Below are positions 15,744 to 46,356 of a stretch of 64,000 bases of DNA, piece by piece. The DNA is taken from positions 128,977,990 through 129,041,989 of the forward strand of contig CP136067.1 in assembly GCA_032622095.1 (NCBI GenBank). The letters are read 5' to 3'. Within the stretch, counting starts at the first letter, position 1. The number at the start of each line of letters is the position of its first letter. Origin of the DNA: Siphonodentalium dalli (taxonomy: Eukaryota > Mollusca > Scaphopoda > Gadilida > Siphonodentaliidae). A program made the translations under genes and the position numbers. The notes below the pieces were generated by a model that was not told the origin of the DNA, did no database searches, and saw only the letters and a program-made list of their open reading frames with translations.

Positions 15744-16195
15744 GGTTACACTGGTGTAAATGTTTTCCATAGGCCTCAGTGCTAACGTTTTAGCGTATAG
15801 TGTTGGCAATATAAATGTTGGGTCCAAAGTTTTCTTTAAATCTGAAAAATTGACATTTTGGGAAACTTTTTACACAAAAAAATCATGTCTGTCTAGCAGG
15901 GAATTCGCCTTTAAATCTTATGTTTTCGTAACTAGTGTCAGAACCGCATAAAAAAATACAGTCATATTTTAGACCACACCAAAAAATTCAAACTTCACTA
16001 CAAAGGGTTAATTCCTGTGCCAATGGTTATTTTACCTATGGGAAATCATAGGGAAGAGGTGTGATGATTTTTTTTATGTGAAAAGCACACAAGGCTATTG
16101 ACCAATCAGGGCCCAGTGTCTATTTTATTCTCTCCTATATATTCCTCCCGCATCCGCTAGATGTCACTCGGAACCTTATTTACACCAGTGTAACC
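15744..16195. mobile_element. TIR element B, array 1 copy 1
   Basis: The copy is 452 bp. Its ends are GGTTACACTGGTGTAAAT and the exact reverse complement. The TIR is itself a dyad (TTACAC-TG-GTGTAA). No transposase is encoded. The left outer flank is TTTT. Confidence 0.88.
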
Positions 16196-17097
16196 TAAAG
16201 CGATAGCCCGCTTTTTCGCGGAATAATTGTAACTCCCTACATTTCTTCAGAATTGCCCATCCATGGAAAAAATGTGTTCAAAAACAATATCACGTCTGTG
16301 GTTCTTTATTTATCACACACAATTTAACCCCACCCCCTTTAACAAATTATTCATCAAAAAAGCACAATTTTCCACCACCAGTCATGTTCAGGCCCCATTT
16401 TCACTCAGTTTTAGGGGTCTGGTGTTGCAAACTTGGATCAGCTATGGAAGACTGTTCAATATTCTTTCCATGAGAGAACTTCTGGTGATGTGAGGTCATT
16501 GAGTCCAGATCTGATCAGCTGAGCATCAAGCGCATGACTTTATCAGCACATTGAAGAATAAAATATGACATTTTCAGGTCTGCAAGGGTGATCCAAGATA
16601 ACTGGATGTGGGTGTATATTGAATTAGTTGAATAAAGATATGCTCTCTTTGAATTGCTGAAGCATTTTCTTAAATGTGTCCAAGTTTTAGTGCTATTAAC
16701 CTTCAAATGACCATACCCACCAGTGGAAATGACACACTTTTATGATATATATCTGTATATCACTGGCTATAAAATCCAAAATACTTGTTAAATTAGGTTC
16801 TTATAACAATTGATATATGTGTCGTTGACATGCCTATGTTATGGGTCATTTGCATTATCATGTGACTATTACCACCTTGAAATTTTTTGAAAATACCTTG
16901 AAAAATTGGCATTTTTTATGAAAAATCTTACTATTTTTTTGGCTGATGTAAGTGAAAGAAGGCATCAGCAGCAAGAATAGCCACATCGAGCATGAGATAT
17001 TCATTGGACTGAAAGACCAGGCTCTGTAAAATGCATTAAAATGCTTTAAAGTGACTCCCAGGAATCAAAAATGATAAAAAGCTATTTTTTCCCTTTA
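16196..17097. repeat. 902-bp spacer of array 1, unit 1
   Basis: The spacer begins TAAAG and ends CTTTA. It contains no inverted ends of its own beyond those bases and no recognisable gene. Short open frames recur in every unit with few changes because the units are young, not because of visible coding constraint. Confidence 0.8.
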
Positions 17098-17548
17098 GGT
17101 TACACTGGTGTAAATGTTTTCCATAGGCCTCAGTGCTAACGTTTTAGCGTATAGTGTTGGCAATATAAATGTTGGGTCCAAAGTTTTCTTTAAATCTGAA
17201 AAATTGACATTTTGGGAAACTTTTTACACAAAAAAATCATGTCTGTCTAGCAGGGAATTCGCCTTTAAATCTTATTTTTTCGTAACTAGTGTCAGAACCG
17301 CATAAAAAAATACAGTCATATTTTAGACCACACCAAAAAATTCAAACTTCACTACAAAGGGTTAATTCCTGTGCCAATGGTTATTTTACCTATGGGAAAT
17401 CATAGGGAAGAGGTGTGATGATTTTTTTATGTGAAAAGCACACAAGGCTATTGACCAATCAGGGCCCAGTGTCTATTTTATTCTCTCCTATATATTCCTC
17501 CCGCATCCGCTAGATGTCACTCGGAACCTTATTTACACCAGTGTAACC
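17098..17548. mobile_element. TIR element B, array 1 copy 2
   Basis: The copy is 451 bp with perfect 18-bp inverted ends. The flanks are TTTA and TAAA. It shares the cttattttttcg variant with copy 3, whereas copy 1 reads cttatgttttcg. Confidence 0.88.
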
Positions 17549-18450
17549 TAAAGCGATAGCCCGCTTTTTCGCGGAATAATTGTAACTCCCTACATTTCTT
17601 CAGAATTGCCCATCCATGGAAAAAATGTGTTCAAAAACAATATCACGTCTGTGGTTCTTTATTTATCACACACAATTTAACCCCACCCCCTTTAACAAAT
17701 TATTCATCAAAAAAGCACAATTTTCCACCACCAGTCATGTTCAGGCCCCATTTTCACTCAGTTTTAGGGGTCTGGTGTTGCAAACTTGGATCAGCTATGG
17801 AAGACTGTTCAATATTCTTTCCATGAGAGAACTTCTGGTGATGTGAGGTCATTGAGTCCAGATCTGATCAGCTGAGCATCAAGCGCATGACTTTATCAGC
17901 ACATTGAAGAATAAAATATGACATTTTCAGGTCTGCAAGGGTGATCCAAGATAACTGGATGTGGGTGTATATTGAATTAGTTGAATAAAGATATGCTCTC
18001 TTTGAATTGCTGAAGCATTTTCTTAAATGTGTCCAAGTTTTAGTGCTATTAACCTTCAAATGACCATACCCACCAGTGGAAATGACACACTTTTATGATA
18101 TATATCTGTATATCACTGGCTATAAAATCCAAAATACTTGTTAAATTAGGTTCTTATAACAATTGATATATGTGTCGTTGACATGCCCATGTTATGGGTC
18201 ATTTGCATTATCATGTGCCTATTACCACCTTGAATTTTTTTGAAAATACCTTGAAAAATTGGCATTTTTTATGAAAAATCTTACTATTTTTTTGGCTGAT
18301 GTAAGTGAAAGAAGGCATCAGCAGCAAGAATAGCCACATCGAGCATGAGATATTCATTGGACTGAAAGACCAGGCTCTGTAAAATGCATTAAAATGCTTT
18401 AAAGTGACTCCCAGGAATCAAAAATGATAAAAAGCTATTTTTTCCCTTTA
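17549..18450. repeat. 902-bp spacer of array 1, unit 2
   Basis: The spacer is nearly identical to the previous one. Private changes lie near 18187 and 18218-18236. Confidence 0.8.
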
Positions 18451-18901
18451 GGTTACACTGGTGTAAATGTTTTCCATAGGCCTCAGTGCTAACGTTTTAG
18501 CGTATAGTGTTGGCAATATAAATGTTGGGTCCAAAGTTTTCTTTAAATCTGAAAAATTGACATTTTGGGAAACTTTTTACACAAAAAAATCATGTCTGTC
18601 TAGCAGGGAATTCGCCTTTAAATCTTATTTTTTCGTAACTAGTGTCAGAACCGCATAAAAAAATACAGTCATATTTTAGACCACACCAAAAAATTCAAAC
18701 TTCACTACAAAGGGTTAATTCCTGTGCCAATGGTTATTTTACCTATGGGAAATCATAGGGAAGAGGTGTGATGATTTTTTTATGTGAAAAGCACACAAGG
18801 CTATTGACCAATCAGGGCCCAGTGTCTATTTTATTCTCTCCTATATATTCCTCCCGCATCCGCTAGATGTCACTCGGAACCTTATTTACACCAGTGTAAC
18901 C
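18451..18901. mobile_element. TIR element B, array 1 copy 3 (right edge)
   Basis: The copy is 451 bp with intact inverted ends. Its right flank is TTTT, matching the bases left of copy 1. Confidence 0.88.
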
Positions 18902-19179
18902 TTTTACTGGCGGTGAAATGAGTGATTTCATGTTCTGAACACATTATTGAAAACTCTTTGACCCTTCGTGGAGGGCATTGTATGGTGGATATTCTATACT
19001 TAAAACAAGACCGGGGCTTTCCTTCTGTCCGATCTAATTCTTACAGATAATAAATATATATGGACTTTATACTTACAAACAAGACCGATCAGGTTGCGCC
19101 ATGTACATTGTACGCAGATATTTTTTATTGGTACTGTTGTGGCATATAATATATGCATGATATATTGTGAATCTTTTAA

Positions 19180-19630
19180 AGATTCATTATCCGAATTAAC
19201 GCTCTCAAGTTACTATTTCCTTGGCTTCGGGGTAAAAAATATTTGATTCGAGTCGAGGAATCCACCCGTCAAAGCTCGGACTGATCAGATATCGATGTTT
19301 GAAATCAATTTTTTTTCACCGCCGATAATTTTAAGTGGCCCAGTAAAGAGTCGACGAGAAGGCGGTCTCGGGCCAAATTGCGGATGAAGATGGATAACCC
19401 TAAAATCAAGTGGCTTTTTTGTGTCAGATATATATTTGACAACCGGCAAAATTTCGTTGAACAAAATGTTGATAATCAACAGGTTTGGGATAATTTTATA
19501 GTGTAGTTGACTGTGGTTAACATTATTTTTGGGCAATTACTCGATTATGATAACTGAAGCGGCATTTCAAAATTTGTTGTTGTTGTTGGAATCGGATGAT
19601 ATGGGGACTATCGAATCGGATTGAGTACAT
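19180..19630 (+). mobile_element. TTAA-flanked MITE, family C, degraded copy
   Basis: TTAA lies at 19176-19179 and 19631-19634. The right end (cggattgagtacat) and internal blocks (atttgattcgagtcgaggaa, cttggcttcgggg) match the better copy at 28845-29322. The left end is decayed. Minus-strand open frames here are not convincing genes. Confidence 0.7.
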
Positions 19631-19634
19631 TTAA

Positions 19635-20497
19635 TATCGATTGAAAAAATAAAATACTGGCCTATGTGATTGAATTGATCGACATAAAATAGAGAGTGCC
19701 CAATTACCTTAGTTTCCATCTTATAAAATACCACATTCCACTCAACATACTCACACAGTCTGCATGAACTAGCTAATACGAATGTCAACAAAATTATTAA
19801 TCTTAACGTGTATCCAAAACCTATATAGAATTACAAACCACACCCCACTGGAGACCCCCCCCCCCCCATCCTTGAGCCCGACAACAGGCCTTAGTTGAAA
19901 TATGACATCGATAATACTCATCAACATCTTTCGACTCAGAAAACGGATTGATGCCTATAACGTCAAGAAATATTAAAATCTTGGACCTAAATTGAACCTT
20001 TAAGAATTCTACTCTCAATTCTTTTATCATTCAGTTTAAACAAAATTCCCCCAAAATTATTCGAGTTAGGGATATGAACGCCATCGAAACAACACCAATA
20101 CAAAAAGTGTAATATTTGGACCAAGAGGTGCCCTTTAACTTTAGTATATAATGGGCTGGGTCCGGACTCAATCCGACGTTGCGTTTTGACGTTATATCCG
20201 CACGGGCAAAACATTTTCTCGGGAACTACTGGGCGGATCGCATTGCCATTTGGTGTGCATGGTCATGTATTTCGGCCCTCCGGGTAACATGGGCTAGGTC
20301 TCGACTCCGGCCGATATCTTTTTTAGTTTGTACCATTATTGATAAAAATTCAAAGCCAAGCCATTACAGACCCAAAATGACGCACCGCTAACAATTTATT
20401 TTGTTGCACGCAATCAATGGACTGTTGTCAACATTGCCAAATAAGCTAAAAGGCCGGACTAAAAAAGCCGATGTACTCTGTAAATGTGATTGCCATA
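19635..20497. other. No gene recognised
   Basis: The region holds a C-run at 19855-19868 and otherwise unremarkable sequence. Short open frames on both strands lack splice context or recognisable motifs. Confidence 0.5.
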
Positions 20498-20957
20498 TGT
20501 GACCCGCCATATCAAATCCAGTCGTAAGTCGGGATTTGTTTTACCTTGTGCCAATGCATTCTCTTATATATGCGAGTCGACCATATAGGTCGCCTCGCAT
20601 ATATAAGAGAATGCATTGGCCTAACAATTTTTTACAATTTTAATAATTTTTACTTGTATTCTTTAACAATTTTATAATTTCACCCATACAGAGCCCCAGA
20701 CAAACATGAGCAGACGACACTCTTCTATATGCTTCTATATATGTGTGGGGCTCCCTGCAGGGTAATGGATGTTTTTTATTTTATGTCCTAAAAATTGTAA
20801 GAAACATTTATTTAAAAAAAATGATAAAAAATTGTTAGGCCAATGCATTCTCTTATATATGCGAGGCGACCTATGGTCGACTCGCATATATAAGAGAATG
20901 CATTGGCACAGGGTAAAAATTCCCGACTTACGACTGGATTTGATATGGCGGGTTACA
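20498..20957. mobile_element. TA-flanked hairpin MITE, family D, copy 1
   Basis: The element is 460 bp and flanked by TA. Its ends are TGTGACCCGCCATATCAAAT and a near-perfect reverse complement. Just inside each end is a ~70-bp self-complementary block (gccaatgcattctcttatat ... mirrored), so each end folds into its own hairpin with the ggtcg/cgacc dyad at the tip. The TA duplication suggests the Tc1/mariner group, but no transposase is present to confirm it. Confidence 0.85.
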
Positions 20958-20959
20958 TA

Positions 20960-21482
20960 TTTAACATATAAAACAAACGTTTGTGTAGCGCAAGTCGGTA
21001 ACAGCCTGAACAATGTTACACCACTTGGTTGTTAGGAATTAGTTTGTCATGCGTAATGTGATTTCACGCCATTATACTCTGCAATATGACACTGTCACAT
21101 CATGTCCATTTCTGTTTTTTTTTCACGACTCTACTCTGAAAATTAGACTGTAATGTCACATCATCTCATGTCTGTTGCACAATATTAGACTGTAATGTCA
21201 CATCATCGCATGTCTGTCGTTCCCAGAAATATAAACATTGATGGTGCGATCGACTTCCTGGAATCGAGCTATATTAAATATAAAACGTACGACATCGCGT
21301 AATAAACTATTAACACTGCTCGTGCTAGCATATTATATATGTTAATTTATAAACTTCTAAAGCACACGACTGTATCGCTGGGGTTGTATATGGGAAATTT
21401 GTCACAATTTGCATTTGGCAGCATCTGGAACCTGACGGAATCTCACGTCATGACAGAAGACAACAGTATTGCATGGTTCAGC
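20960..21482. repeat. Intervening sequence with short tandem copies
   Basis: At 21082-21220 a segment of about 55 bp (agactgtaatgtcacatcat ... gtctgt) occurs two and a half times with divergence. No gene was recognised. Confidence 0.6.
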
Positions 21483-22016
21483 CAGGGGGAAAAATTTCAG
21501 GCACGTATGGCATTTTTTCCCTTTCGATCATTTTTTGTACCCACCCACCCCCACCGCCAAATTTTTTTCCGTTTTCGGCAGTTTTTTCCGACCATTTTTT
21601 GACACCCACCCCCCCTTTTAACACTAAAACAGAGATTTGCGGGGGGAAATTCACTGTAAAAAGCTGTATATGAATTTCTGTGCATACTATTTATCATGGA
21701 TGTTAACATGGACATGTAAATAGGAATGAGTCATTTTGAGGTCATTTGGCCAAAAAAACATGGCTGCCAGCGGCCATCTTGGATTTCAAAATTTGCAACA
21801 AAATACAACACGATAACTGCCTGCAGTCAGTTTACAGTTAGAATTACATTATTTCTCTCATTCAAAGTGGGTTTGAAGCCCAACTCATTGCCAAAACACT
21901 AAAAAACAAGCAGGAATTTTTTTTTTTAGTTGCGTAAAAAATTGCTTGTTGGTGGCTTTGACCACCCACCCACCCCGGCATACGTGCCGGAATTTTTTTT
22001 TTCACCCCCCCCCCTG
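21483..22016. mobile_element. CAGG-ended MITE, family E, copy 1
   Basis: The element is 534 bp and starts CAGGGGG. The other end is CCCCCCTG, with subterminal inverted blocks around ggcacgtatg and catacgtgcc. The 7-bp flank GTTCAGC occurs on both sides (21476-21482, 22017-22023). CAGG-type ends recall hAT elements, but a 7-bp duplication is short for hAT, so I leave the superfamily open. Open frames inside come from low-complexity C- and T-rich sequence. Confidence 0.88.
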
Positions 22017-22023
22017 GTTCAGC

Positions 22024-22552
22024 ACCAACATTTGAGTTTTTTTCCAGGATTGACGGAGGAGTAATATAACGCACTGAAATTTACACTTATTTTGAGTAGT
22101 ACTTTACTGTTAAAAAGATATTATAGCATGATCATGTCCATCTTAAAAACGTACCAATGTGTTATCTTTAACTCTCCACAACAGTATACATGTTGAAGTC
22201 AGATACTTTTTGTAAACTATGTAATTGTTTCACAAAAACTATATAGTCTAATTGCTTAGCTTCAATCGTTCGATGAGAATTGAAATGCGCGTCACCATTC
22301 AATGTCACAATGTCACTAACGTTTATTTACGAAGATAGCCAGTTGTTTGCATTTTGCAATTTTAGGGTCAACATGTTTCGAAATCTATTACGGTGGCAGG
22401 GTGATATAATTGCTCACCTGTTGCCATTGGAAGACCGATATATCGGTCTCGAGGTCGTAACATGGGAAATTAACAGCAAGAGGGTTAATGGCTGTGCAAT
22501 TCGTGCCACCCAATGTGATATATTTTTGTCATAATCGCTTTGTATGAACATA
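22024..22552. other. No gene recognised
   Basis: This is a unique-looking stretch between two transposons. It contains a short dyad, gaccgatatatcggtc, near 22433. Open frames are short and unsupported. Confidence 0.5.
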
Positions 22553-23016
22553 TGTGACCCGCCATATAAAATCCAGTCGTAAGTCGGTATTTTTTTTACC
22601 CTGTGCCAATGCATTCTCTTATATATGCGAGTCGACCATAGGTCGCCTCGCATATATATAAGAGAATGCATTGGCCTAACAATTATTTATCATTTTTTTT
22701 AAAATAAATGTTTCTTACAATTTTTAGGACATAAAATAAAAAACATCCATTACCCTGCAAGGAGCCCCACACATGTATAGAAGCATATAGAAGAGTGTCG
22801 TCTGCTCATGTTTGTCTGGGGCTCTGTATGGGTGAAATTATAAAATTGTTAAAGAATACAAGAAAAAATTATTAAAATTGTAAAAAATTGTTAGGCCAAT
22901 GCATTCTCTTATATATGCGAGACGAGCTATGGTCGACTCGCATATATAAGAGAATGCATTGGCACAGGGTAAAAAAAATTCCCGACTTACGACTTGATTT
23001 GATATGGCGGGTCACA
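22553..23016. mobile_element. TA-flanked hairpin MITE, family D, copy 2
   Basis: The element is 464 bp and flanked by TA. It has the same ends and two subterminal hairpins as the copy at 20498-20957, with its interior in the opposite orientation. Open frames over it simply traverse the hairpins. Confidence 0.85.
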
Positions 23017-23199
23017 TATGAGGGGTTGTTTGTTTCATTACATCGCTCGGGCACATTTATCACGACTAAGACATTAAGTCCATTCAGTAGATGTGCTGGA
23101 CTGATGAACAACAACATTCAACAACGATAATCTGTGGCCAGGACAACTCTGCAAACCATCATCACATTTATTGATTTTATATTCTGGTATATTCAGGTA

Positions 23200-23555
23200 T
23201 ATTCTTATAAGATATCGATTTTTGAAGTTTGTTATTTCTCGAGATGTGTAATAATATGTGGCCCAGAAATACGTGGTCAAACGGAGAGTCTCGGACAAAA
23301 TTGCGGATGAAGATGGATAACTCCAAAATCAAGTGGTAAACGGTCAAATTTCGTGATACGTTAGTGATAATACGGCCATATTTTGTTGAACAAAATGTTG
23401 ATAAATAACAAGTTTTGTGAAATTTGATACCATAGTGGTTAGCATTATTTTATTGCAACAAATCGATTCTGATAACTAAAGTGTATTTTGAAGAAATGTT
23501 GTTGTTGTATATTGATGGTATGGGAACGGTCTGATCGGATTGACTGAATCAGGAT
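23200..23555 (+). mobile_element. Family C MITE fragment
   Basis: Blocks shared with 19180-19630 include attgcggatgaagatggata, gttgaacaaaatgttgata and a right-hand gatcggattga. Neither a clean end nor TTAA flanks remain. Confidence 0.6.
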
Positions 23556-24696
23556 ATAATGATAAAATTAATTTTTGACCAGCTGTTTGGACATTTGCTG
23601 TGATATTTTCAGTCTTGTTGAACTTTGAATTTTCTACTGGTGATTTCTAAACTTATCTAGACAGGAACGGTATAATATACCAGAACTGTCCTGGAAAAGC
23701 TTGGTAAAGGGGGGTACCCATAGTGTTGCAAAAAAAAAAAATTCAGTCATGTTTCTGCAAATTGTTTCCTGGCCCCTGGTTATCACGGATATTAAAACTT
23801 TGTTAACAGGTATCTCTATCCTTGGCATGGCTGGTTCTCCGAATATGAATGTGTTTTTTCGTTAACCGAATGAAAAATATTTCTTGGAAAGATAATTGTA
23901 AATAACTAGATCTATGCCGAACACAGATCCGCTTACTTGACAGGTGACATCACCCCATGCATCCGGATATGCTCGTAGCGGAAGACATGCTCGTAGCGGA
24001 ATAACCACATGGCACGCGATTTGCACACCGTTCACGGTTAGACACATGTTGCACCAAAACCAACACATACCAGTGGTTGACGGTGGTGGTACTATTTGTG
24101 GCTATAATTTACCCAACTGTACATCAAACTTCTTTAAACATGGACGCAGTTTAATCCTATTTTACCGGGAAGTTAGGCCAAAAATTGTGGCAAAATTTGA
24201 ATTTCTTACATAAAATTACGATTTCCGTGGTAACAGCTCAGACAATATAGTCTTTGCATACATTGCTATTTCCGCGGATATTCCCTTAATATAATAGACA
24301 ACATTTTCAGTCATGTTTCTACATTTTCCATAGTAAAAAATTACCAATATGCAGGTCATAGCAAGAACATATGGTATGTCTATAGCAGTGGTTTTACGTT
24401 TGCTATAGACATGCCCCAAAATCAAGTGAGTGCCTACATGGAAACTAATTTTTCGGGCACAAATATGATTGACATCGCAAACATGTCCAGTTTATTTTGA
24501 AGCTAAGATATCATACTTTGAGAGACTGTATGTTATACAATGTGTCAATGCAAAGATTCATTAAACTTTGATAAAACTTATACCGAGTAAGTATTTCAGG
24601 TCTTAATTTTCGTATAAAACCCGATTATCGAAACGTAATATGCAAATTGCGGAAACCATAACCGCTCATTTCTGTAGACCGATTATCGCTGTTAAC
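23556..24696. other. No gene recognised; one strong hairpin
   Basis: At 24373-24415 the sequence ggtatgtctatagca faces tgctatagacatgcc across a 13-base loop, a 15-bp stem with one mismatch. A short direct repeat (gctcgtagcggaa) lies near 23970-24000. Open frames here are short and unsupported. Confidence 0.5.
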
Positions 24697-24830
24697 GGGG
24701 GCAGTACAAAATTTGCAGGAAGGTATGCCTTTTTTTTTGCATCTGGCATTTTCGGGGACCCACCACCCCCAAACCTGCAAACAAAATATGTTTTTAGTAC
24801 CAATTTTTTGACACCCCCCCCCAAATTCAC
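24697..24830. mobile_element. Degraded family E-like fragment
   Basis: C-rich blocks (gacccaccacccccaaacc, gacaccccccccc) and a tttgcaggaaggtatgcc segment resemble the ends of family E. No target duplication was found. Confidence 0.35.
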
Positions 24831-24959
24831 TAAAATTTGTCTAAAATCGCATAAAGCTCTACTGATATCACTCATGTGATTGATCTCAGTTAGTTCAAAT
24901 AACAGTTTAACCTGTTTCAGAAGCTGTTTTAATTGAAAAAAAAAATGTTTTATAAATTG

Positions 24960-26060
24960 CTGATCATCTGTAAACCTAGGTCATTGTGCAGAATACACAA
25001 AAATTCATAATTTCTAACTATTTCCTGATAAGTCTGTCAACCAGCCCACTATCTAACATATTCGATACCACTTATATTAGTCTAGTGGAGCAACTTACTT
25101 CTATTATACTAAACTAGCTGAAACAGGCTCCCTTTGTGAGCCTATATTCAGCATCGGAGATACATGTGGCCCCCTTTGTGGGACTTCGCAAACATTTTGA
25201 TCTGAGACAGAGCCTTCATTAAGCGGCGGCCCCTTTGTGCGCTTCAAGCACATTTGGTCATTGAAACATTTTGATATATACATATTGTTTTAATATATTT
25301 AAAAAATAAATTGAATTCCTTGCTCAATTTAACAAAACCAATTGTTTTTTGTTTTTTTTAATTAAGATTATAAAAAAACTAACACCATTAGAACATCCGC
25401 CAGGGTACCCATAGTCACCACACCGAACTTGGTTGAACTCGGTCCAGGGGTCTGAGAGATAAACCCGGACAGATCTTACTCGTTTATATATATATAGACG
25501 ACAAGCAGTCACACCACTATACCAGACTTGGATACGTTCGATCATCTGATGACATGCAAATAATTCACTGATTGGCTTGATGCACTGATGACAGATATTT
25601 TCTACCCATTGATAGTCACATTAATGTTCGAGACAGTTGCTCGCTCTTTTTACATGCATCTAGGCATTATGACAAGTTTACTTATATATATGCAATCTTA
25701 GGTCAATGTACAGATACACACAATTCCATTATTTCTAACCATTTCCCGATTAGTCTGTCAACCAGCCCATTATCTAGCATTATGCCTTAACACTTTTGTT
25801 AGTCTGCTGGATCAACCTCTGTTATAATAAATGAATAACAGTCACTATGCCAGACTTGGATATTTTAGATGTTGTGAGAGTAACAGATCATATGAGTTGA
25901 TAGACATGTAAATATTTTACTGATTGGCTTGATGCACCGATGAACAGTGTGATGACAGTTATATTCTAGCCAGTGATAGTCACATAAATGTTTGAGACAG
26001 TTGCTCGCTCTTTTTCTTGATCTTGGCTTTAGTTACATCAAGACAAGTTTATTTATTTCA
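24960..26060 (+). repeat. Diverged tandem duplication
   Basis: The block gtctgtcaaccagcccactat at about 25030 recurs at about 25755. A second block of about 220 bp starting cagtcacaccactataccag (about 25506) recurs at about 25841 with many substitutions. Landmarks are ctgattggcttgatgca and gagacagttgctcgctcttt. The copies look old. Confidence 0.75.
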
Positions 26061-26084
26061 ATTTTCATTTCTCGAATCTACTTT

Positions 26085-26365
26085 CCGAAGGGTGTCGGGA
26101 AGGATTTTTTTTCAACCCACCGCCCCATATGCAACATGCCATACAGCTCAATGTCATCTCTACTAAGGCTCATATGAGGTCCCAGTAACATAAATATGGT
26201 GTTTTTGCAGTTATAAATTCTTATAATATGTTTTAAACTGTTACAAATGTCATATAAGGGCACAAAAGGTCTTTAGTAAAAAAATTGCATGAGGGTGTAA
26301 AAACGCGTCCCCCCTCGGGCCACCCACCACCCCGGCATACCTTCCTGCAAATTGTTTACTACCGG
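26085..26365. mobile_element. Possible degraded C-rich MITE
   Basis: One side reads cgggaaggattttttttcaa and the other ggcataccttcctgcaaatt, followed by accggggggt. The layout resembles a family E relative. A similar right-end fragment is at about 31012-31062. No clear target duplication was found. Confidence 0.35.
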
Positions 26366-26780
26366 GGGGTCACAGTGATAAAAATATGCTGACGCAAATA
26401 TTACATTTGTATGTATCCCGACTTTATTTCCATTTTTAATCATACAAGTGTTCTTTGTATACCTTTGTATAATATGTATTGCAGGCAGGAAGCCTAACTC
26501 TTTTTGTTAACTGTTAATTGTTTGTTGGAAAGTGGCGTCAATAAGACAGCAATAACTTGTTCCCTAATCCAATAAGCTATTTTTGCTGATAAAATATGTT
26601 TAAACTACGCACTTAATTCTGACAGGACATCTTCCAGTTGGTGCGCACCCAGATGTCGGTGCTATATTAATGAATCGTGGGATTGGGATGGTGCTTCGAA
26701 TGGTTGATCATGACCTCAAGTTGTTGTGGCTATTTTGCACGCCAGAAGTAAATATACGAACACGAATTATGTCTGTCACA
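26366..26780. other. No gene recognised
   Basis: The sequence is AT-rich and without clear repeats. Forward open frames that begin here owe their length to the adjoining minisatellite. Confidence 0.5.
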
Positions 26781-27036
26781 AAGAAGCACACACACGAACA
26801 AGAACTCTATCTATCAGAAAGAAACTCATACACGAACAAGAACTCTATCTATCAGAAAGAAACACATACACGAACAAGAACTCTATCTATCAGAAAGAAA
26901 CTCATACACGAACAAGAACTCTATCTATCAGAAAGAAACACATACACGAACAAGAACTCTATCTATCAGAAAGAAACACATACACGAACAAGAACTCTAT
27001 CTATCAGAAAGAAACACATACACGAACAAGAACTAT
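26781..27036. repeat. 38-bp minisatellite, about 7 copies
   Basis: The unit includes acacatacacgaacaagaac followed by tctatctatcagaaagaa. An alternating variant has actcatacac. Open frames across it are a by-product of a period that is not a multiple of three. No signal peptide or flanking exon structure supports coding. Confidence 0.93.
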
Positions 27037-27119
27037 ATCTGGAATCGGGGAGCTCAATGTGCTCCAGAGCCGGGGAGCGAGTGAACCGTGGAATGCTAAA
27101 GGTGAAGGTAACTGAATAA

Positions 27120-31139: not shown

Positions 31140-31143
31140 TTAA

Positions 31144-31637: not shown

Positions 31638-31641
31638 TTAA

Positions 31642-33521: not shown

Positions 33522-33528
33522 ATATTAC

Positions 33529-35767: not shown

Positions 35768-35770
35768 AAT

Positions 35771-36617
35771 ACGTCATGGTTAATGGACGAGAGACTGAAC
35801 ATTCGGAAAATAGAAGGTTGAGCAAAAAAGGATACCTACTTTCATACCGATGAACATTTCCGACAAATATGATAAATGAGACACATACGAATGTACAAAA
35901 CCACGCATTGATACAGTTATCGGGGCGGTCTGTTCGTCCGTCCATCAGTTCGCTTTTGGTTGGAGGATGATAACTTTACATATAGTTCCAACTGAATGGA
36001 ATGAAATGTGTGTATACTAGTACAAAATATAGGTCAAGTTTGCTCGCCAATTTTGTCCAGAGTTATGGCCCTTTGTTGTAATTACCACATGCGTATTTTG
36101 CCACGCCTTATCAATGCTCTTCTTATTCAATGAAATAAGTCCACAATATGTCTTTAAATTTGACTTTTCTTAAAAATAGTATTTTATGCATTTCTTTTCA
36201 GAGTGTACCCTATCGCGAGACCATATAGCAACCACACCAAACAACCACACCAAACAGCCACCACACCAAACAGCCACAGCCACATTAAAGAGCAAACAGT
36301 TGAACCTATCTCTAAATACATTTATTAGCAGCTGAATGGCAGAGGAGATGGGCTCTGATCAGTTCTGCAACTTGGGCTCCGATCATCTGTGCCCACACAG
36401 CTAGCTGTGTGTATATAATAATATGTGTAAGTTATATATACGTTGTGGGTCACAATAAGTATGATCAACAACATGCTAGCTATTTGTGACATCTTAGGTG
36501 CGCGTAGCAATATGATGTAGTGTTCGCGCTGCCGCTTGCCAAAATGCAAAGCAAACATAATGCACATTTGGTAAAAATTATATTTCTCAGCAAACTTGTT
36601 GGCAAGTGCATGTAACA

Positions 36618-36618
<1 letters not shown>
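35771..36618. other. No gene recognised
   Basis: The region contains a ctgttcgtccgtccatcag stretch followed by ggatgataactttacatat, a phrase that recurs as ggatgataactttagtat at 57907. It also has three short copies of 'accacaccaaacagcca' near 36230-36275. Confidence 0.5.
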
Positions 36619-36657
<39 letters not shown>

Positions 36658-36715
36658 GGAGAGAGAGAGTAGAGAGAGGGAGAGGAGAAAGAGAGAGAGA
36701 GAGAGAGAGAGAGGT
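36619..36715. repeat. GA microsatellite
   Basis: An interrupted (GA)n run of about 95 bp. It produces a leucine/serine-rich minus-strand open frame that I do not regard as a gene. Confidence 0.95.
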
Positions 36716-37217
36716 GCGGGAGTCACTTAATTTTCGAATCACCAGATCACATTATATTCAACATAATTGATGTCATATACCATTTAAAAGAGGAAGCTCC
36801 AAAACATTGTAGCATTAACTGATCCGGTCGAATAAACTGGGGACATGTTGTTTTTGTCGAGGTACCAAGGTGTGTCCTGCATTTAATTTTGATCCGGACT
36901 GTACTATAAAGTCTATTACACTCAATGGAAGGGGAATAACTCTATCTCTTAGTTTGAATTTTGATGCATTCTGGGTTGACACGATGGGAGTCTTGGGATG
37001 AATCTCCATCACTTGGTGGACAGTCCTAGGCCACAGCTGCTTCGTATTATGGTGGAATATATATTTGTTTGGTTCCTTTTCCAAATGGTATATAATATGG
37101 TATAATGTTATCTGGGCATTCGAAAATTAAGTGGGCCTTTAACTTCGATGATCAAACAAAGCGTCTAACAACCAATACATCTACACCTCTCGTTCAGAGA
37201 AGTCATCGCCTTCTATA

Positions 37218-37718
37218 CAGGTCGGGCACATCCTGAATTCCACTTATTATAGTGGTATTCCATTATTATAGTGGTATACGACCATAACGTATTTATATTT
37301 CCTTTATTTGCTTCGGAAATAGAAGAGGGTGCATATAACAGTGCACAGCCAAATTTCACTCTTGACAATAGCGCAGCGAATGAACAGTCTTCCAACAAAA
37401 TCCGTTGTGCAATATTTTACGCCAGCGTTGTTATTCAATAATATTACTGACGATGCCTTTCTAAATGACAATAACATGATGATTCAATTGCTCCTTCCAA
37501 CTAATTGAATGCTAATTGAGTTGCTTATCGTGTGCCGTCATGATTAATCATTCTCCTGGACATAATATATGTATAATACCGAATTAGCGCGACACTGATT
37601 TTGAATAATTTGTGTGAAATATGATTTTGGATTATCCCTCTTTTATCAAATTCACAAAACGGTAATGGTCAGACTCATATACCGCCATAATAGTGGAATT
37701 CAGGATGTGCCTGACCTG
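37218..37718. mobile_element. CAGG-ended MITE, family H
   Basis: The element is 501 bp. The left end is CAGGTCGGGCACATCCTGAA and the right end, inverted, CAGGTCAGGCACATCCTGAA. The 7-bp TTCTATA lies on both sides (37211-37217, 37719-37725). Its interior differs from family E, but the CAGG start and 7-bp duplication are the same. Confidence 0.88.
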
Positions 37719-37725
37719 TTCTATA

Positions 37726-38469
37726 TCAGACACCTTTCGCGCATACTGAACGACGACATACAATTAATAAGAATAGGGCACTACGTCACTAGATGTTGTG
37801 TTCTTTCTATTCGTTGTCGTTTTTCCTTATTCAATAGAGACCTTTCGCAAAACTCACGTTTACGATTACGGATACGGATAGGGTACTACGTCACCAACAT
37901 TTGTGTACTTTCTAATCGTTGTCGTATTTTGCTATCCGCAATAACGGTTACGATTTCATGGTTTCTAATAAGCTCAAATAACACCTGAAATTTATTTTCT
38001 GCAATATATCACTTTACTCCGTTCGAGACTGTATATGTATATCATGTAAACCATCCAGTTGTATTGAGCTACGACCTCGATATGCTGTTTAGATTAGCAA
38101 TCACTCTACTCGTCGTCGTGAATCTCGAGCTTCCCGCGAAATAAGATCGCTATTCACAACGGATAGTCATCGCTGGCTGCGACACAAAACTTTGCAGTAA
38201 TATATAGAAGTGCACTATGAAACCAGTCGCCAAAAATACACGACTGACATGGATTTGGTGGTACTAAAATAATATTTGGCACACCCACCGACATCACCGT
38301 GTCGACTTTGTTTCGATTTGATAGGACCAAATCAGAAGTGATGCACATCAGCGAGCACAGCAACCGTATGTCGGATTTCCTAAACCCAAAGAGGTGATAG
38401 GCCTGGATAGGATAGGATAGGATATTTTATTTCCAATACACATACACAGAGACGTGGTGACAGGGGGAG
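37726..38469. repeat. Diverged tandem copies
   Basis: Two copies of about 104 bp: agggcactacgtcac (about 37775) recurs as agggtactacgtcac (about 37879), each with ttcgttgtcg further on. The forward open frame over them is a by-product. A gataggataggatatttta stretch is at about 38405. Confidence 0.6.
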
Positions 38470-39240
38470 GGGTTGGGGGGGGGGGGGGGGGGGTGGGGTG
38501 TCTCACCCCTCAACTTTGGTCAAATTTTTCAACAGTTGGAAATTTAACACCTGAGACAACATTAGTTGGAAATTTCACACCAACAATAGGTTGAAAATGT
38601 TCTTGTAGTTTGATTTTCAAACAATTTATTGTGGGGAATTTATTGTTTTTGGACCAATATTTGCATATTTTCCTTCTTTTGATAAAAATTTTGGACTGAA
38701 ATGGCCATCAGTTAGACATTTTCCAACCTTAGGGGTGTCAGGTTGGAAATTTCCAACACTTGGAAAGCTTGTGTCCTGGTCCCTCCCCGTGGCCAGTCAA
38801 AAACTTCTAGTTAATTTAAGAATATAATATTGTCCTACATTTGGTCAAAATTGGACTGGAATTGTCATCAGTTGGAAATGTCCAACTCTATGAATGCTTG
38901 AGGCTAGTCTAGATGCCAGGATTTTGCGATTTTATTGTTCACGTTTAAAAAAAAAATTCGCACTCCGGGCCGAACCATGGTCGGTCCGGTGTGTCCTGGT
39001 CCCTCCCCGTGGCCAATAAAAAACTGCTAATGAGTTTAAGAAAACAATATTTTACTACATTTGGTTAAAATCGTTGACTGAAAATTTCCAAACTAAGGGA
39101 GAGTATGAGGTTTGAAATTTTCAACACTAGGAAAGCTTGAGGTCAGTCTAGATGCTAGGATTTTCGATTTTCTTGTTTAGTTTTCAATATTTTCTCACAC
39201 CGGGCCGATCAACCATGGTCGGCCCGGTGGGGCCTGGTCT
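38470..39240. repeat. Diverged tandem repeat with hairpins, preceded by a G-run
   Basis: After a G-run at 38475-38494, the phrase tcctggtccctccccgtggc occurs at about 38771 and 38994 (223 bp apart). Units share 'agtctagatgc-aggattt', 'gttggaaatttcc' and a hairpin of the form ccgggccga...tcggcccgg (best at 39200-39228). Confidence 0.7.
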
Positions 39241-40485
39241 ATTGTCCGTAGTCGTGTGCACACCCCAACGGAAACCCTATAGCCAGGTCCCTGCACATAC
39301 ATATTACATAATAATGATGACAATTATGGATAATTCTGTCGTAAATTGTGGGGGATGGCATAATCTGACAAGACTGTCTTCCTGCCAAAATCGCATTGAA
39401 ATGAAATTGCGGACTGAAAGGGTCTTGAAGTGGTGGCGTCGTGGTTGATGTGAGGTCCAAATTTAGGAACCCCTCTTCCCCATCAGCATAACGTCTATCA
39501 GGTCTTCCATGATAACAACGAACTGAATTTCCACCACATATGACCTGGCATTTATACCTGTATTGCCATAATATATCACGAGAATCCCGGGTCGTACGTT
39601 GTTACTGGTCGAATTATTGACAATAGGAACAGGTCATGATTATCGCATTGTTGCAAATGAGACGAATAGTGAAGTATTAAGGGAATGTATACCAAACACA
39701 CGCTTTGAGTTGTAAAAGTGGTTCAAAATAATGATGGTACGTGTTCGTCAAAACTCTTACGCGTAGTCGTTTTGCGAAAGGACTTTTTGGCCATACGGAT
39801 AGACTTACGACTACGAATAGCTATCCGTATTCGTAATCGTAAACGTGAGGATGCGAAAGGTCTCTGTTGTTACTAATACATCATATAGTAACAAGTTCGT
39901 GAACGGTTCTCAGGTCCTCAATGTTGGAGATGATTCAGAGATTATGCCCTTAATTTGTGAGCGGCATATGGAATTGATCTTTTACAAATTAGACAATTAG
40001 TTATCAGCAAATTGTTCGTCGACATGAATCGCGAGAATCTTGCCAAACACAAAGCATTTAGCTTTTACTTGATACCAACATAATTGCTGCGAGTGCCAAG
40101 CACGACTGTCTCACAAACGGACTCGTAATATATAGTCAATTCAGGTCAATTCGTAATATATAGTTAATTCTGCGAAACGGTTTTTGGACCGTCCAAACAC
40201 AAAATTACGACGAGATTCACCGAATCTCAACCGAGTCCTCCCCCACAGCGGTCGCGTCACGATACATTCCTCTGAGGAACGGACGAGCCCCCCCCCCAGA
40301 ACCAGAGGGTGAGAGATGTGAGGGCTCACTGGCATTGGAAATTTTAGTACCAGAACGTGCGCAGCATACAGAGGAGGCATGTTTATTATCTGAGCAGATA
40401 CAATGTGTTATTCGTCAACGTTTCGTAAATACATATTGTTCCACGATATACAACAAGTGTGATGCAGCCTGTTGGACTTGAGTGG
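39241..40485. other. No gene recognised; foldback near 39770-39866
   Basis: Near 39770-39866 ttgcgaaagga, catacggatag and inverted partners ctatccgtat and gcgaaaggtct form a foldback whose outer sequence matches the inverse of 37838-37880. Open frames in the region have no supporting motifs. Confidence 0.5.
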
Positions 40486-40489
40486 TATA

Positions 40490-40940
40490 GGTTACACTGG
40501 TGTAAATGTTTTCCATAGGCCTCAGTGCTAACGTTTTAGCGTATAGTGTTGGCAATATAAATGTTGGGTCCAAAATTTTCTTTAAATCTGAAAAATTGAC
40601 ATTTTGGGAAACTTTTTACACAAAAAAATCATGTCTGTCTAGCAGGGAATTCGCCTTTAAATCTTATGTTTTCGTAACTAGTGTCAGAACCGCATAAAAA
40701 AATACAGTCATATTTTAGACCACACCAAAAAATTCAAACTTCACTACAAAGGGTTAATTCCTTTGCCAATGGTTATTTTACCTATGGGAAATCATAGGGA
40801 AGAGGTGTGATGATTTTTTTATGTGAAAAGCACACACGGCTATTGACCAATCAGGGCCCAGTGTCTATTTTATTCTCTCCTATATATTCCTCCCGCATCC
40901 GCTAGATGTCACTCGGAACCTTATTTACACCAGTGTAACC
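40490..40940. mobile_element. TIR element B, array 2 copy 1 (left edge)
   Basis: The copy is 451 bp with perfect 18-bp inverted ends. Its left flank is TATA. Confidence 0.88.
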
Positions 40941-41842
40941 TAAAGCGATAGCCCGCTTTTTCGCGGAATAATTGTAACTCCCTACATTTCTTCAGAATTG
41001 CCCATCAATGGAAAAAATGTGTTCAAAAACAATATCACTTCTGTGGTTCTTTATTTATCACACACAATTTAACCCCACCCCCTTTAACACATTATTCATC
41101 AAAAAAGCACAATTTTCCACCACCAGTCATGTTCAGGCCCCATTTTCACTCAGTTTTAGGGGTCTGGTGTTGCAAACTTGGATCAGCTATGGAAGACTGT
41201 ACAATATTCTTTCCATGAGAGAACTTCTGGTGATGTGAGGTCATTGAGTCCAGATCTGATCAGCTGAGCATCAAGCGCATGACTTTATCAGCACATTGAA
41301 GAATAAAATATGACATTTTCAGGTCTGCAAGGGTGATCCAAGATAACTGGATGTGGGTGTATATTGAATTAGTTGAATAAAGATATGCTCTCTTTGAATT
41401 GCTGAAGCATTTTCTTAAATGTGTCCAAGTTTTAGTGCTATTAACCTTCAAATGACCATACCCACCAGTGGAAATGACACACTTTTATGATATATATCTG
41501 TATATCACTGGCTATAAAATCCAAAATACTTGTTAGATTAGGTTCTTATAACAATTGATATATGTGTCGTTAACATGCTCATGTTATGGGTCATTTGCAT
41601 TATCATGTGACTATTACCACCTTGAAATTTTTTGAAAATACCTTGAAAAATTGGCATTTTTTATGAAAAATCTTACTATTTTTTTGGCTGATGTAAGTGA
41701 AAGAAGACATCAGCAGCAAGAATAGCCACACCAAGCATGAGATATTCATTGGACTGAAAGACCAGGCTCTGTAAAATGCATTAAAATGCTTTAAAGTGAC
41801 TCCCAGGAATCAAAAATGATAAAAAGCTATTTTTTCCCTTTA
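40941..41842. repeat. 902-bp spacer of array 2, unit 1
   Basis: The spacer begins TAAAG and ends CTTTA. It differs from array 1 spacers by about ten fixed changes, for example cacttctgtgg, ttaacacatta and ccaccaagcatg. Confidence 0.8.
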
Positions 41843-42293
41843 GGTTACACTGGTGTAAATGTTTTCCATAGGCCTCAGTGCTAACGTTTTAGCGTATAGT
41901 GTTGGCAATATAAATGTTGGGTCCAAAATTTTCTTTAAATCTGAAAAATTGACATTTTGGGAAACTTTTTACACAAAAAAATCATGTCTGTCTAGCAGGG
42001 AATTCGCCTTTAAATCTTATGTTTTCGTAACTAGTGTCAGAACCGCATAAAAAAATACAGTCATATTTTAGACCACACCAAAAAATTCAAACTTCACTAC
42101 AAAGGGTTAATTCCTTTGCCAATGGTTATTTTACCTATGGGAAATCATAGGGAAGAGGTGTGATGATTTTTTTATGTGAAAAGCACACACGGCTATTGAC
42201 CAATCAGGGCCCAGTGTCTATTTTATTCTCTCCTATATATTCCTCCCGCATCCGCTAGATGTCACTCGGAACCTTATTTACACCAGTGTAACC
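41843..42293. mobile_element. TIR element B, array 2 copy 2
   Basis: The copy is 451 bp with flanks TTTA and TAAA. Confidence 0.88.
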
Positions 42294-43195
42294 TAAAGCG
42301 ATAGCCCGCTTTTTCGCGGAATAATTGTAACTCCCTACATTTCTTCAGAATTGCCCATCAATGGAAAAAATGTGTTCAAAAACAATATCACTTCTGTGGT
42401 TCTTTATTTATCACACACAATTTAACCCCACCCCCTTTAACACATTATTCATCAAAAAAGCACAATTTTCCACCACCAGTCATGTTCAGGCCCCATTTTC
42501 ACTCAGTTTTAGGGGTCTGGTGTTGCAAACTTGGATCAGCTATGGAAGACTGTACAATATTCTTTCCATGAGAGAACTTCTGGTGATGTGAGGTCATTGA
42601 GTCCAGATCTGATCAGCTGAGCATCAAGCGCATGACTTTATCAGCACATTGAAGAATAAAATATGACATTTTCAGGTCTGCAAGGGTGATCCAAGATAAC
42701 TGGATGTGGGTGTATATTGAATTAGTTGAATAAAGATATGCTCTCTTTGAATTGCTGAAGCATTTTCTTAAATGTGTCCAAGTTTTAGTGCTATTAACCT
42801 TCAAATGACCATACCCACCAGTGGAAATGACACACTTTTATGATATATATCTGTATATCACTGGCTATAAAATCCAAAATACTTGTTAGATTAGGTTCTT
42901 ATAACAATTGATATATGTGTCGTTGACATGCTCATGTTATGGGTCATTTGCATTATCATGTGACTATTACCACCTTGAAATTTTTTGAAAATACCTTGAA
43001 AAATTGGCATTTTTTATGAAAAATCTTACTATTTTTTTGGCTGATGTAAGTGAAAGAAGACATCAGCAGCAAGAATAGCCACACCAAGCATGAGATATTC
43101 ATTGGACTGAAAGACCAGGCTCTGTAAAATGCATTAAAATGCTTTAAAGTGACTCCCAGGAATCAAAAATGATAAAAAGCTATTTTTTCCCTTTA
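42294..43195. repeat. 902-bp spacer of array 2, unit 2
   Basis: The spacer is nearly identical to unit 1 and carries the gtcgttgacatg variant. Confidence 0.8.
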
Positions 43196-43646
43196 GGTTA
43201 CACTGGTGTAAATGTTTTCCATAGGCCTCAGTGCTAACGTTTTAGCGTATAGTGTTGGCAATATAAATGTTGGGTCCAAAATTTTCTTTAAATCTGAAAA
43301 ATTGACATTTTGGGAAACTTTTTACACAAAAAAATCATGTCTGTCTAGCAGGGAATTCGCCTTTAAATCTTATGTTTTCGTAACTAGTGTCAGAACCGCA
43401 TAAAAAAATACAGTCATATTTTAGACCACACCAAAAAATTCAAACTTCACTACAAAGGGTTAATTCCTTTGCCAATGGTTATTTTACCTATGGGAAATCA
43501 TAGGGAAGAGGTGTGATGATTTTTTTATGTGAAAAGCACACACGGCTATTGACCAATCAGGGCCCAGTGTCTATTTTATTCTCTCCTATATATTCCTCCC
43601 GCATCCGCTAGATGTCACTCGGAACCTTATTTACACCAGTGTAACC
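43196..43646. mobile_element. TIR element B, array 2 copy 3
   Basis: The copy is 451 bp with flanks TTTA and TAAA. Confidence 0.88.
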
Positions 43647-44548
43647 TAAAGCGATAGCCCGCTTTTTCGCGGAATAATTGTAACTCCCTACATTTCTTCA
43701 GAATTGCCCATCAATGGAAAAAATGTGTTCAAAAACAATATCACTTCTGTGGTTCTTTATTTATCACACACAATTTAACCCCACCCCCTTTAACACATTA
43801 TTCATCAAAAAAGCACAATTTTCCACCACCAGTCATGTTCAGGCCCCATTTTCACTCAGTTTTAGGGGTCTGGTGTTGCAAACTTGGATCAGCTATGGAA
43901 GACTGTACAATATTCTTTCCATGAGAGAACTTCTGGTGATGTGAGGTCATTGAGTCCAGATCTGATCAGCTGAGCATCAAGCGCATGACTTTATCAGCAC
44001 ATTGAAGAATAAAATATGACATTTTCAGGTCTGCAAGGGTGATCCAAGATAACTGGATGTGGGTGTATATTGAATTAGTTGAATAAAGATATGCTCTCTT
44101 TGAATTGCTGAAGCATTTTCTTAAATGTGTCCAAGTTTTAGTGCTATTAACCTTCAAATGACCATACCCACCAGTGGAAATGACACACTTTTATGATATA
44201 TATCTGTATATCACTGGCTATAAAATCCAAAATACTTGTTAGATTAGGTTCTTATAACAATTGATATATGTGTCGTTGACATGCTCATGTTATGGGTCAT
44301 TTGCATTATCATGTGACTATTACCACCTTGAAATTTTTTGAAAATACCTTGAAAAATTGGCATTTTTTATGAAAAATCTTACTATTTTTTTGGCTGATGT
44401 AAGTGAAAGAAGACATCAGCAGCAAGAATAGCCACACCAAGCATGAGATATTCATTGGACTGAAAGACCAGGCTCTGTAAAATGCATTAAAATGCTTTAA
44501 AGTGACTCCCAGGAATCAAAAATGATAAAAAGCTATTTTTTCCCTTTA
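43647..44548. repeat. 902-bp spacer of array 2, unit 3
   Basis: This spacer matches unit 2 at the distinguishing site (gtcgttgacatg). Confidence 0.8.
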
Positions 44549-44999
44549 GGTTACACTGGTGTAAATGTTTTCCATAGGCCTCAGTGCTAACGTTTTAGCG
44601 TATAGTGTTGGCAATATAAATGTTGGGTCCAAAATTTTCTTTAAATCTGAAAAATTGACATTTTGGGAAACTTTTTACACAAAAAAATCATGTCTGTCTA
44701 GCAGGGAATTCGCCTTTAAATCTTATGTTTTCGTAACTAGTGTCAGAACCGCATAAAAAAATACAGTCATATTTTAGACCACACCAAAAAATTCAAACTT
44801 CACTACAAAGGGTTAATTCCTTTGCCAATGGTTATTTTACCTATGGGAAATCATAGGGAAGAGGTGTGATGATTTTTTTATGTGAAAAGCACACACGGCT
44901 ATTGACCAATCAGGGCCCAGTGTCTATTTTATTCTCTCCTATATATTCCTCCCGCATCCGCTAGATGTCACTCGGAACCTTATTTACACCAGTGTAACC
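44549..44999. mobile_element. TIR element B, array 2 copy 4
   Basis: The copy is 451 bp with flanks TTTA and TAAA. Confidence 0.88.
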
Positions 45000-45901
45000 T
45001 AAAGCGATAGCCCGCTTTTTCGCGGAATAATTGTAACTCCCTACATTTCTTCAGAATTGCCCATCAATGGAAAAAATGTGTTCAAAAACAATATCACTTC
45101 TGTGGTTCTTTATTTATCACACACAATTTAACCCCACCCCCTTTAACACATTATTCATCAAAAAAGCACAATTTTCCACCACCAGTCATGTTCAGGCCCA
45201 ATTTTCACTCAGTTTTAGGGGTCTGGTGTTGCAAACTTGGATCAGCTATGGAAGACTGTACAATATTCTTTCCATGAGAGAACTTCTGGTGATGTGAGGT
45301 CATTGAGTCCAGATCTGATCAGCTGAGCATCAAGCGCATGACTTTATCAGCACATTGAAGAATAAAATATGACATTTTCAGGTCTGCAAGGGTGATCCAA
45401 GATAACTGGATGTGGGTGTATATTGAATTAGTTGAATAAAGATATGCTCTCTTTGAATTGCTGAAGCATTTTCTTAAATGTGTCCAAGTTTTAGTGCTAT
45501 TAACCTTCAAATGACCATACCCACCAGTGGAAATGACACACTTTTATGATATATATCTGTATATCACTGGCTATAAAATCCAAAATACTTGTTAGATTAG
45601 GTTCTTATAACAATTGATATATGTGTCGTTAACATGCTCATGTTATGGGTCATTTGCATTATCATGTGACTATTACCACCTTGAAATTTTTTGAAAATAC
45701 CTTGAAAAATTGGCATTTTTTATGAAAAATCTTACTATTTTTTTGGCTGATGTAAGTGAAAGAAGACATCAGCAGCAAGAATAGCCACACCAAGCATGAG
45801 ATATTCATTGGACTGAAAGACCAGGCTCTGTAAAATGCATTAAAATGCTTTAAAGTGACTCCCAGGAATCAAAAATGATAAAAAGCTATTTTTTCCCTTT
45901 A
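45000..45901. repeat. 902-bp spacer of array 2, unit 4
   Basis: This spacer matches unit 1 at the gtcgttaacatg site and has one private change (ggcccaattttc). Confidence 0.8.
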
Positions 45902-46352
45902 GGTTACACTGGTGTAAATGTTTTCCATAGGCCTCAGTGCTAACGTTTTAGCGTATAGTGTTGGCAATATAAATGTTGGGTCCAAAATTTTCTTTAAATC
46001 TGAAAAATTGACATTTTGGGAAACTTTTTACACAAAAAAATCATGTCTGTCTAGCAGGGAATTCGCCTTTAAATCTTATGTTTTCGTAACTAGTGTCAGA
46101 ACCGCATAAAAAAATACAGTCATATTTTAGACCACACCAAAAAATTCAAACTTCACTACAAAGGGTTAATTCCTTTGCCAATGGTTATTTTACCTATGGG
46201 AAATCATAGGGAAGAGGTGTGATGATTTTTTTATGTGAAAAGCACACACGGCTATTGACCAATCAGGGCCCAGTGTCTATTTTATTCTCTCCTATATATT
46301 CCTCCCGCATCCGCTAGATGTCACTCGGAACCTTATTTACACCAGTGTAACC
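45902..46352. mobile_element. TIR element B, array 2 copy 5 (right edge)
   Basis: The copy is 451 bp. Its right flank is TATA, matching the left flank of copy 1. Confidence 0.88.
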
Positions 46353-46356
46353 TATA

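Follow-up and report, generated by a model that had tools for sequence, protein, structure and literature searches.

What kind of sequence forms tandem arrays that begin and end exactly on the ends of their own inverted repeats? The question is raised by two arrays, A and B, in a 64,000-nucleotide stretch of the genome of the scaphopod Siphonodentalium dalli (C7:128977990-129041989, hereafter the window; the assembly comprises 2.227 Gb in 9 contigs). A search of the window for an 18-bp terminal inverted repeat (TIR), with up to 3 mismatches allowed, gave 16 matches, all of them exact, compared with 0.10 expected from shuffled sequence. These matches pair into 8 elements, termed E, of which 3 lie in array A (15744-18901) and 5 in array B (40490-46352). 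Both arrays have the form E-(S-E)n, where S is a spacer and n is 2 in array A and 4 in array B. Apart from the first element of array A (452 bp), E in the window is 451 bp long, and its ends are perfect 18-bp TIRs (GG...CC); S measures 902 bp in 6/6 copies. The sequences flanking the arrays are TTTT/TTTT for array A and TATA/TATA for array B, while inner element ends adjoin TTTA (left) or TAAA (right) and show no direct duplication. A first-pass annotation of this DNA had proposed the same layout, with the TIR as the outermost bases of both arrays and a 4-bp repeat around each whole array rather than each element, and the TIR search, the spacer lengths and the reading of the flanks bear it out on all of these points.

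The annotation had treated this structure as unexplained, whereas its kind was already published in 2022 as KolobokP (Kojima and Bao 2022, Mobile DNA 13:24, PMC9587614), the only paper found in a literature word search for that name. As described in the parts of the paper drawn on here, to which all comparisons below refer, a KolobokP transposon is LTDR-INT-LTDR, in which long terminal direct repeats (LTDRs) of near 450 or 660 bp surround an internal region (INT). Each LTDR has its own TIRs of 11-18 bp with RR...YY ends, and target duplications of 3-5 bp surround solo LTDRs, monomers and multimers; among the forms recorded are LTDRs standing alone, multimers of the type (LTDR-INT)n-LTDR, and INT-INT joints short of a few bases. 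The INT encodes a DDD/E transposase and, on the opposite strand, an I-PpoI-like His-Me endonuclease, and non-autonomous families are included. We conclude, with a probability of about 0.88, that arrays A and B are (LTDR-INT)n-LTDR multimers of a non-autonomous KolobokP transposon and follow the scheme of mobilisation and recombination set out below. The kind of element is already described; the families found here are new.

In KolobokP terms, E is the LTDR and S the INT. On the + strand, the LTDRs of array A occupy 15744-16195, 17098-17548 and 18451-18901 and alternate with INTs at 16196-17097 and 17549-18450, the TTTT duplication being read at 15740-15743 and 18902-18905. Array B consists of LTDRs at 40490-40940, 41843-42293, 43196-43646, 44549-44999 and 45902-46352 and INTs at 40941-41842, 42294-43195, 43647-44548 and 45000-45901, also on the + strand, between TATA copies at 40486-40489 and 46353-46356. 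All five elements of array B are identical, and 4 positions separate them from the two 451-bp elements of array A. Two long direct repeats thus surround an INT, as in KolobokP, both here and in the sampled arrays and the coding relative L029 described below; the 18-bp TIR with its GG...CC ends obeys the RR...YY rule, and the LTDR lengths of 451 bp in arrays A and B and 646 bp in a third array fit both length classes. The window INT contains no open reading frame (ORF) of 90 codons or more and hence no ORF for a transposase or an endonuclease, and Rfam and tRNA scans of the window found nothing. An idea that S represents two decayed copies of E, prompted by 1,353 being 3 x 451, was discarded, the best E-S match being 36 bp. 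The LTDR/INT junctions read CCCTTTA/GGTTAC (for example at window 41836-41850), a semi-palindrome with a 4-base centre. It resembles the I-PpoI site, and the LTDR edge is a possible endonuclease target.

Each array carries one 4-bp duplication at its outermost TIRs, and the site of array B is found uninterrupted in other copies of a repeat. When the flanks of array B, joined by a single TATA, were searched against the genome, 40 scored matches were obtained, two of which are its own flanks. The other 38 all span the junction, 22 with equal length in query and target and 16 with differing lengths; query 13-83, for example, corresponds to 71 bases on C8 and query 14-94 to 81 bases on C4. With the target repeat present in uninterrupted form at other places, the whole of array B represents one insertion into a repeat. 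The corresponding search with the joined flanks of array A returned only its own two flanks and no empty site.

As in KolobokP, 4-bp duplications recur at other loci. Among sampled arrays that hold one or more INTs and whose two ends were both examined, 29 of 36 have a perfect duplication directly at the LTDR ends: 19 of 23 in the first sets, which include arrays A and B, 9 of 12 three-LTDR arrays of a second family (E'-S, see below) and one array with five exact junctions. Random flanks were computed to match in ~0.5% of cases per array; the chance test was run with n = 37, including locus d214, and the reported count uses 36. Solo LTDRs with two readable ends match in 6 of 8 cases (L013, L014, L016, L020, L022 and L034, with L017 and L047 lacking a match), this total being exclusive of the partial solo LTDRs L019, L028, L033 and L040. 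The sampled loci were drawn from listings of exact TIRs or exact junctions, mostly on C1 and C2, which biases them towards young copies. Genome-wide, the exact TIR has 12,551 matches (6,256 + 6,295) and the exact LTDR/S junction 3,659 (1,730 + 1,929), compared with a largest multimer count of 30 tabulated in the KolobokP paper. The 4-bp duplication around each of arrays A and B and the uninterrupted target copies of array B show that such an array occupies the genome as a single transposon insertion.

The genome also holds a relative (L029, C1:25.75 Mb) that shares the TIR, has two identical 451-bp LTDRs and carries ORFs for both a transposase and an endonuclease. Its two LTDRs, of a type termed E', are identical at 451/451 positions and surround a 4,028-bp INT, and its outer duplication is TTAT (+ strand). 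E' has the same 18-bp TIR as E, and the two align at 70-72% over about 350 of 451 bp. A 536-aa stop-to-stop ORF in the INT matches PF20700 (Mutator-like transposase; 1.7e-48), while on the opposite strand a 156-aa ORF matches PF05551 (zinc-binding region of homing endonuclease; 3.1e-13). The latter aligns to I-PpoI by phmmer at 7e-4 and keeps S97, H98, C100, C105, H110, E114 and N119, among which S97, H98, H110, E114 and N119 are named as conserved by Kojima and Bao (2022, PMC9587614). L029 is therefore like KolobokP in having oppositely directed ORFs for a transposase and an I-PpoI-like endonuclease, whereas the window family, unlike coding KolobokP, has a non-coding 902-bp INT, both ORFs being found in its same-TIR relative. 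An NCBIfam scan of the two L029 proteins gave one below-cut-off match (E 0.07), which was taken as chance, and a Pfam scan of three L029 ORFs detected no reverse transcriptase.

Among the endonuclease matches listed, the aligned stretch of most contains a stop codon, commonly one TGA, with a 134-aa open frame; the L029 frame is open throughout. Copies bearing the endonuclease are also arrayed, as in the case of 8 copies repeating every 4,495 bp at C2:178.17-178.21 Mb. A third LTDR type, with the TIR GGTTACAGTGAAGTAATT, lies beside endonuclease ORFs that are 42-43% identical to that of L029 (L062, L063 and L071). TAAAG directly follows the LTDR in E-S, in E' and in the third type, and in 9 of 10 loci fetched beside endonuclease matches the INT starts with TAAAG, L064 having no recognisable LTDR. 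This recurrence suggests that the INT tips are constrained although the outer flanks vary, and they may be a site for the endonuclease or the transposase.

Two other groups of mobile DNA share part of this architecture. As characterised in the KolobokP paper (PMC9587614), bacterial composite transposons and IS26 pseudo-composites also use two direct mobile ends to move the segment between them; in contrast, the end repeats here are non-coding and, in L029, the transposase lies between them. Solo long terminal repeats (LTRs) and tandem terminal-repeat retrotransposons in miniature (TRIM), as described in the same source, likewise show alike direct repeats within an insertion, solo repeats and tandems that share repeats, unlike which the present elements have perfect 18-bp TIRs and, in L029, encode a transposase. 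An LTR retrotransposon of the TRIM kind was rejected as a candidate because the ends are GG...CC and not TG...CA, 18-bp TIRs are present and a relative codes for a transposase.

The same INT was found in combination with two different LTDRs. S is joined to E and also to E', with 566 exact E'/S junctions, and is thus shared by two LTDRs of only 70-72% identity over their aligned part, a use of one INT that sets these families apart from KolobokP as described. An L029-type INT end joined to E' is present in L029, L067 and L068; a search for the same INT end joined to E, made with one exact 33-base pattern and without a positive control, gave 0 matches. Some arrays lack single LTDRs, leaving INT-INT joints, as is also the case in KolobokP. 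One form of S-S joint, in which the LTDR is gone (TTTATAAA becoming TTTAAA), has 302 exact matches, many of them in long runs such as C1:237.98-238.08 Mb (about 100 kb) and C1:275.64-275.91 Mb. The net loss at the counted joint is 2 bp, compared with 3 or 4 in the KolobokP paper, and L026 carries a different form of INT-INT joint. We infer that the LTDR was lost most simply by excision. Stretches of hundreds of kb at C2:12.07-12.49 Mb, C1:275.64-275.91 Mb and C3:113.29-113.51 Mb are dense in S matches or S-S joints and, as judged from the matches themselves, resemble young transposon-derived satellite DNA.

Units within one locus resemble each other. In 13 E'-S arrays, two sampled INTs differ by 0-2 bases within a locus, compared with a mean of 7.8 between loci. 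These arrays have 28 variable INT columns; the change is common to the two sampled units in 24 and confined to one unit in 4. The common changes define 9 distinct locus sets, of which six are single loci, with 14 of the 24 columns falling in one three-locus set. Locus-private LTDR changes in the E family comprise 26 present in all sampled LTDRs (11 of 19 loci), 4 present in some and 62 present in one; the old loci L011 and L042 supply 12 of the first group and 31 of the last. L021, L025 and L030 were left out of this LTDR alignment, and LTDRs were partly sampled in an ~80-kb array (7), L035 (3) and L043 (2). The three LTDRs of c158 are identical, as are five 401-bp INT stretches in another array, and within the fetched parts of the ~80-kb array 0-2 bases separate neighbouring INTs. 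On this evidence we see no separate left and right LTDR lineages such as a fixed composite moved solely by cut and paste would accumulate.

The two families differ in array length. Among the matches listed, 50 E-S sites (after setting aside the ~80-kb array and E' sites) have one exact junction in 30 cases, two in 13, three in 3, four in 2 and five in 2, whereas 21 E'-S arrays have one junction in 2 cases, two in 12, three in 2, four in 1 and five in 1, with one array each of 11, 20 and 26 (one versus two or more junctions, Fisher P = 7e-5); exact-junction counts underestimate arrays with mutated junctions, and older-looking E-S copies may inflate the class of one. The E'/S tally covers 98 of the first 100 places listed, one C2 site (two places) being omitted, and the LTDR/S tally 96 of the first 100, one C1 site (four places) being omitted. 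Where arrays with two exact junctions were fetched, 12 of 13 hold two INTs, and d214 continues leftward. One INT haplotype carries a one-base deletion as its marker and occurs in 24 exact copies genome-wide at 13 sites, with two marked units at 9 sites, one at 3 and three at 1, unmarked units being invisible in this count; no large array carries the marker. At the marker sites c253, d30 and d214, the sampled INTs are identical (6/6). Taken together, the shared INT changes, the two-unit marker sites and the use of one INT with two LTDRs suggest that chain length is inherited or set at insertion and that units are homogenised. Either multimers moved whole and were homogenised afterwards, or length was fixed at the time they were made; doubling in place at most sites, though possible, would be less simple. 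At L042 (C1:38336677-38338990), the same flank precedes both LTDRs and the second copy of the flank joins the first 8 LTDR bases, such that an in-place duplication seems to have carried flanking DNA along.

In the scheme that we favour, L029-like relatives would supply a transposase able to pair any left TIR with any right TIR that has the same direction; solo LTDRs, monomers and multimers alike could then move. Copy number would change as the direct repeats recombine, perhaps triggered by cuts of the endonuclease, and the units of one site would be kept alike either by exchange or conversion among them or by passage through an intermediate of one unit. The first-pass annotation had offered two routes, either transposition of an element-spacer-element composite by its outer TIRs followed by unequal exchange, or uptake of spacer-element circles by a solo element. 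Both appear in the Discussion of Kojima and Bao (2022, PMC9587614), who call their own models of multimer formation speculative. The first route is the better supported, provided it is added that units are homogenised or rebuilt from one unit; the second is possible. Movement by the outermost TIRs agrees with the duplications at 29 of 36 arrays and with the empty targets of array B. A few arrays, with damaged ends or unmatched flanks, do answer to the condition that the annotation had named as refuting. Expansion may have preceded or followed insertion.

Several observations speak against the KolobokP reading or some part of it. In seven of the 36 arrays, no perfect duplication abuts the ends. 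Three of them, c213, d15 and d30, show a duplication at a distance of 2, 1 and 6 bp, with TA, A and TAAAGG respectively in between, which is a post hoc reading; the ~80-kb array (C1:445299-526469) and L041 have no perfect flank match; and the left ends of L011, which starts on an INT remnant, and L043, whose first LTDR is truncated, are damaged. The 62 changes seen in one LTDR fit change after insertion, but would also fit LTDRs of differing lineages. The L029 INT has no blastn match to S at E 0.01, a result that also led us to reject S as a shortened L029 INT. Since the window INT lacks a transposase and the L029 INT is unlike S, the mobiliser of E-S is deduced from the shared TIR. The L029 transposase is assigned to the Mutator/Kolobok type by its PF20700 profile match.

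How the multimers arose is less certain than what they are. They could have expanded in place, a monomer E-S-E being inserted and then lengthened by unequal LTDR exchange with the aid of endonuclease cuts, as in the models of Kojima and Bao (2022, PMC9587614; Fig. 5a and 5c). The falling series of E-S junction counts, the locus-private changes common to units, the near-identical neighbouring INTs of the ~80-kb array and the duplication in L042, as we read it, are all consistent with such expansion, which we consider plausible at somewhat less than even odds, the peak at two junctions in E'-S arrays and at two units for the haplotype marker being difficult to accommodate. Both peaks, and the absence of the marker from large arrays, would instead be expected if units of three LTDRs transposed whole and were inherited as such, their two INTs being kept alike by gene conversion. 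The identical INTs at c253, d30 and d214 and the perfect outer duplications of 9 of the 12 three-LTDR arrays agree with this, but conversion would be needed on the branches leading to 9 locus sets and yet only 4 unit-specific changes remain, and we regard whole-unit transposition as possible but on the doubtful side.

Alternatively, an LTDR-INT circle might be amplified before insertion into a concatemer of identical units, a stretch of which the transposase would then insert by its outer TIRs. Changes common to both units in 24 of 28 columns, the 9 locus sets of which six are single loci, the marker with never more than three units at a site and the five identical 401-bp INT stretches would follow directly, and the extra bases TA, A and TAAAGG at c213, d15 and d30 resemble INT ends, as if cut at the LTDR/INT boundary. 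However, duplication in place with gene conversion also yields shared private changes, and 14 of the 24 columns are linked and make up a single set shared by three loci. The extra bases, which were sought post hoc, are short, and the sixth base at d30 fits the L029 INT (TAAAGG) and not S (TAAAGC). No circle was seen, and an abutted LTDR-LTDR junction has 0 exact matches. Amplification before insertion is accordingly unlikely in our estimate, and its fuller form, that KolobokP multimers are born as multimers, one LTDR-INT circle per round giving a short concatemer that inserts by its outer TIRs at a length typical of the lineage, is a shade less likely still. An ordinary satellite with a chance inverted repeat, to which some very long runs such as the ~100 kb of S-S joints might point, is extremely improbable: most array ends lie on TIR ends and have 4-bp duplications, insertions of solo LTDRs or of single units are scattered, and empty copies of the target exist. 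The first-pass annotation had argued that a plain satellite would not be expected to end at element ends.

The KolobokP reading connects one class of long tandem arrays with a single transposon mechanism. As the genome has thousands of copies, the models of KolobokP multimer formation become separable by unit counts per site and by shared variants. If multimers insert ready-made, transposition can seed satellites in one step. Birth as multimers would mean that a DNA transposon with an LTR-like or rolling-circle-like cycle plants ready-made satellites and that an INT cassette can swap its LTDR partners.

A third array occupies 1-14569 on the + strand, with 9 LTDRs in the window and its left end outside it. 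These LTDRs are 646 bp long (the last 644) and have a 19-bp perfect TIR, GGTGACACTCCACAGTTTC, again of the form GG...CC and one base above the 11-18 bp range given for KolobokP in the parts of the paper drawn on here. The measured INTs are 838-846 bp, and comparison of the array with E or S gave matches no larger than chance size. Two INT-INT joints without an LTDR, at 1853/1854 and 13089/13090, each lack TTAA. By its architecture, this array is a further KolobokP-like multimer, of the ~660-bp LTDR class. Its right end falls exactly on a TIR at 14569 and abuts a 37-bp minisatellite (14570-14993). Other minisatellites in the window lie at 53721-54708 (37 bp, about 27 copies) and 26752-27040 (38 bp, about 8 copies). 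Outside the window, at C1:43174696-43175260, the 18-bp TIR plus one base (GGTTACACTGGTGTAAATA) repeats many times, in direct orientation and mostly with a 24-bp period, forming a minisatellite that holds a TIR end.

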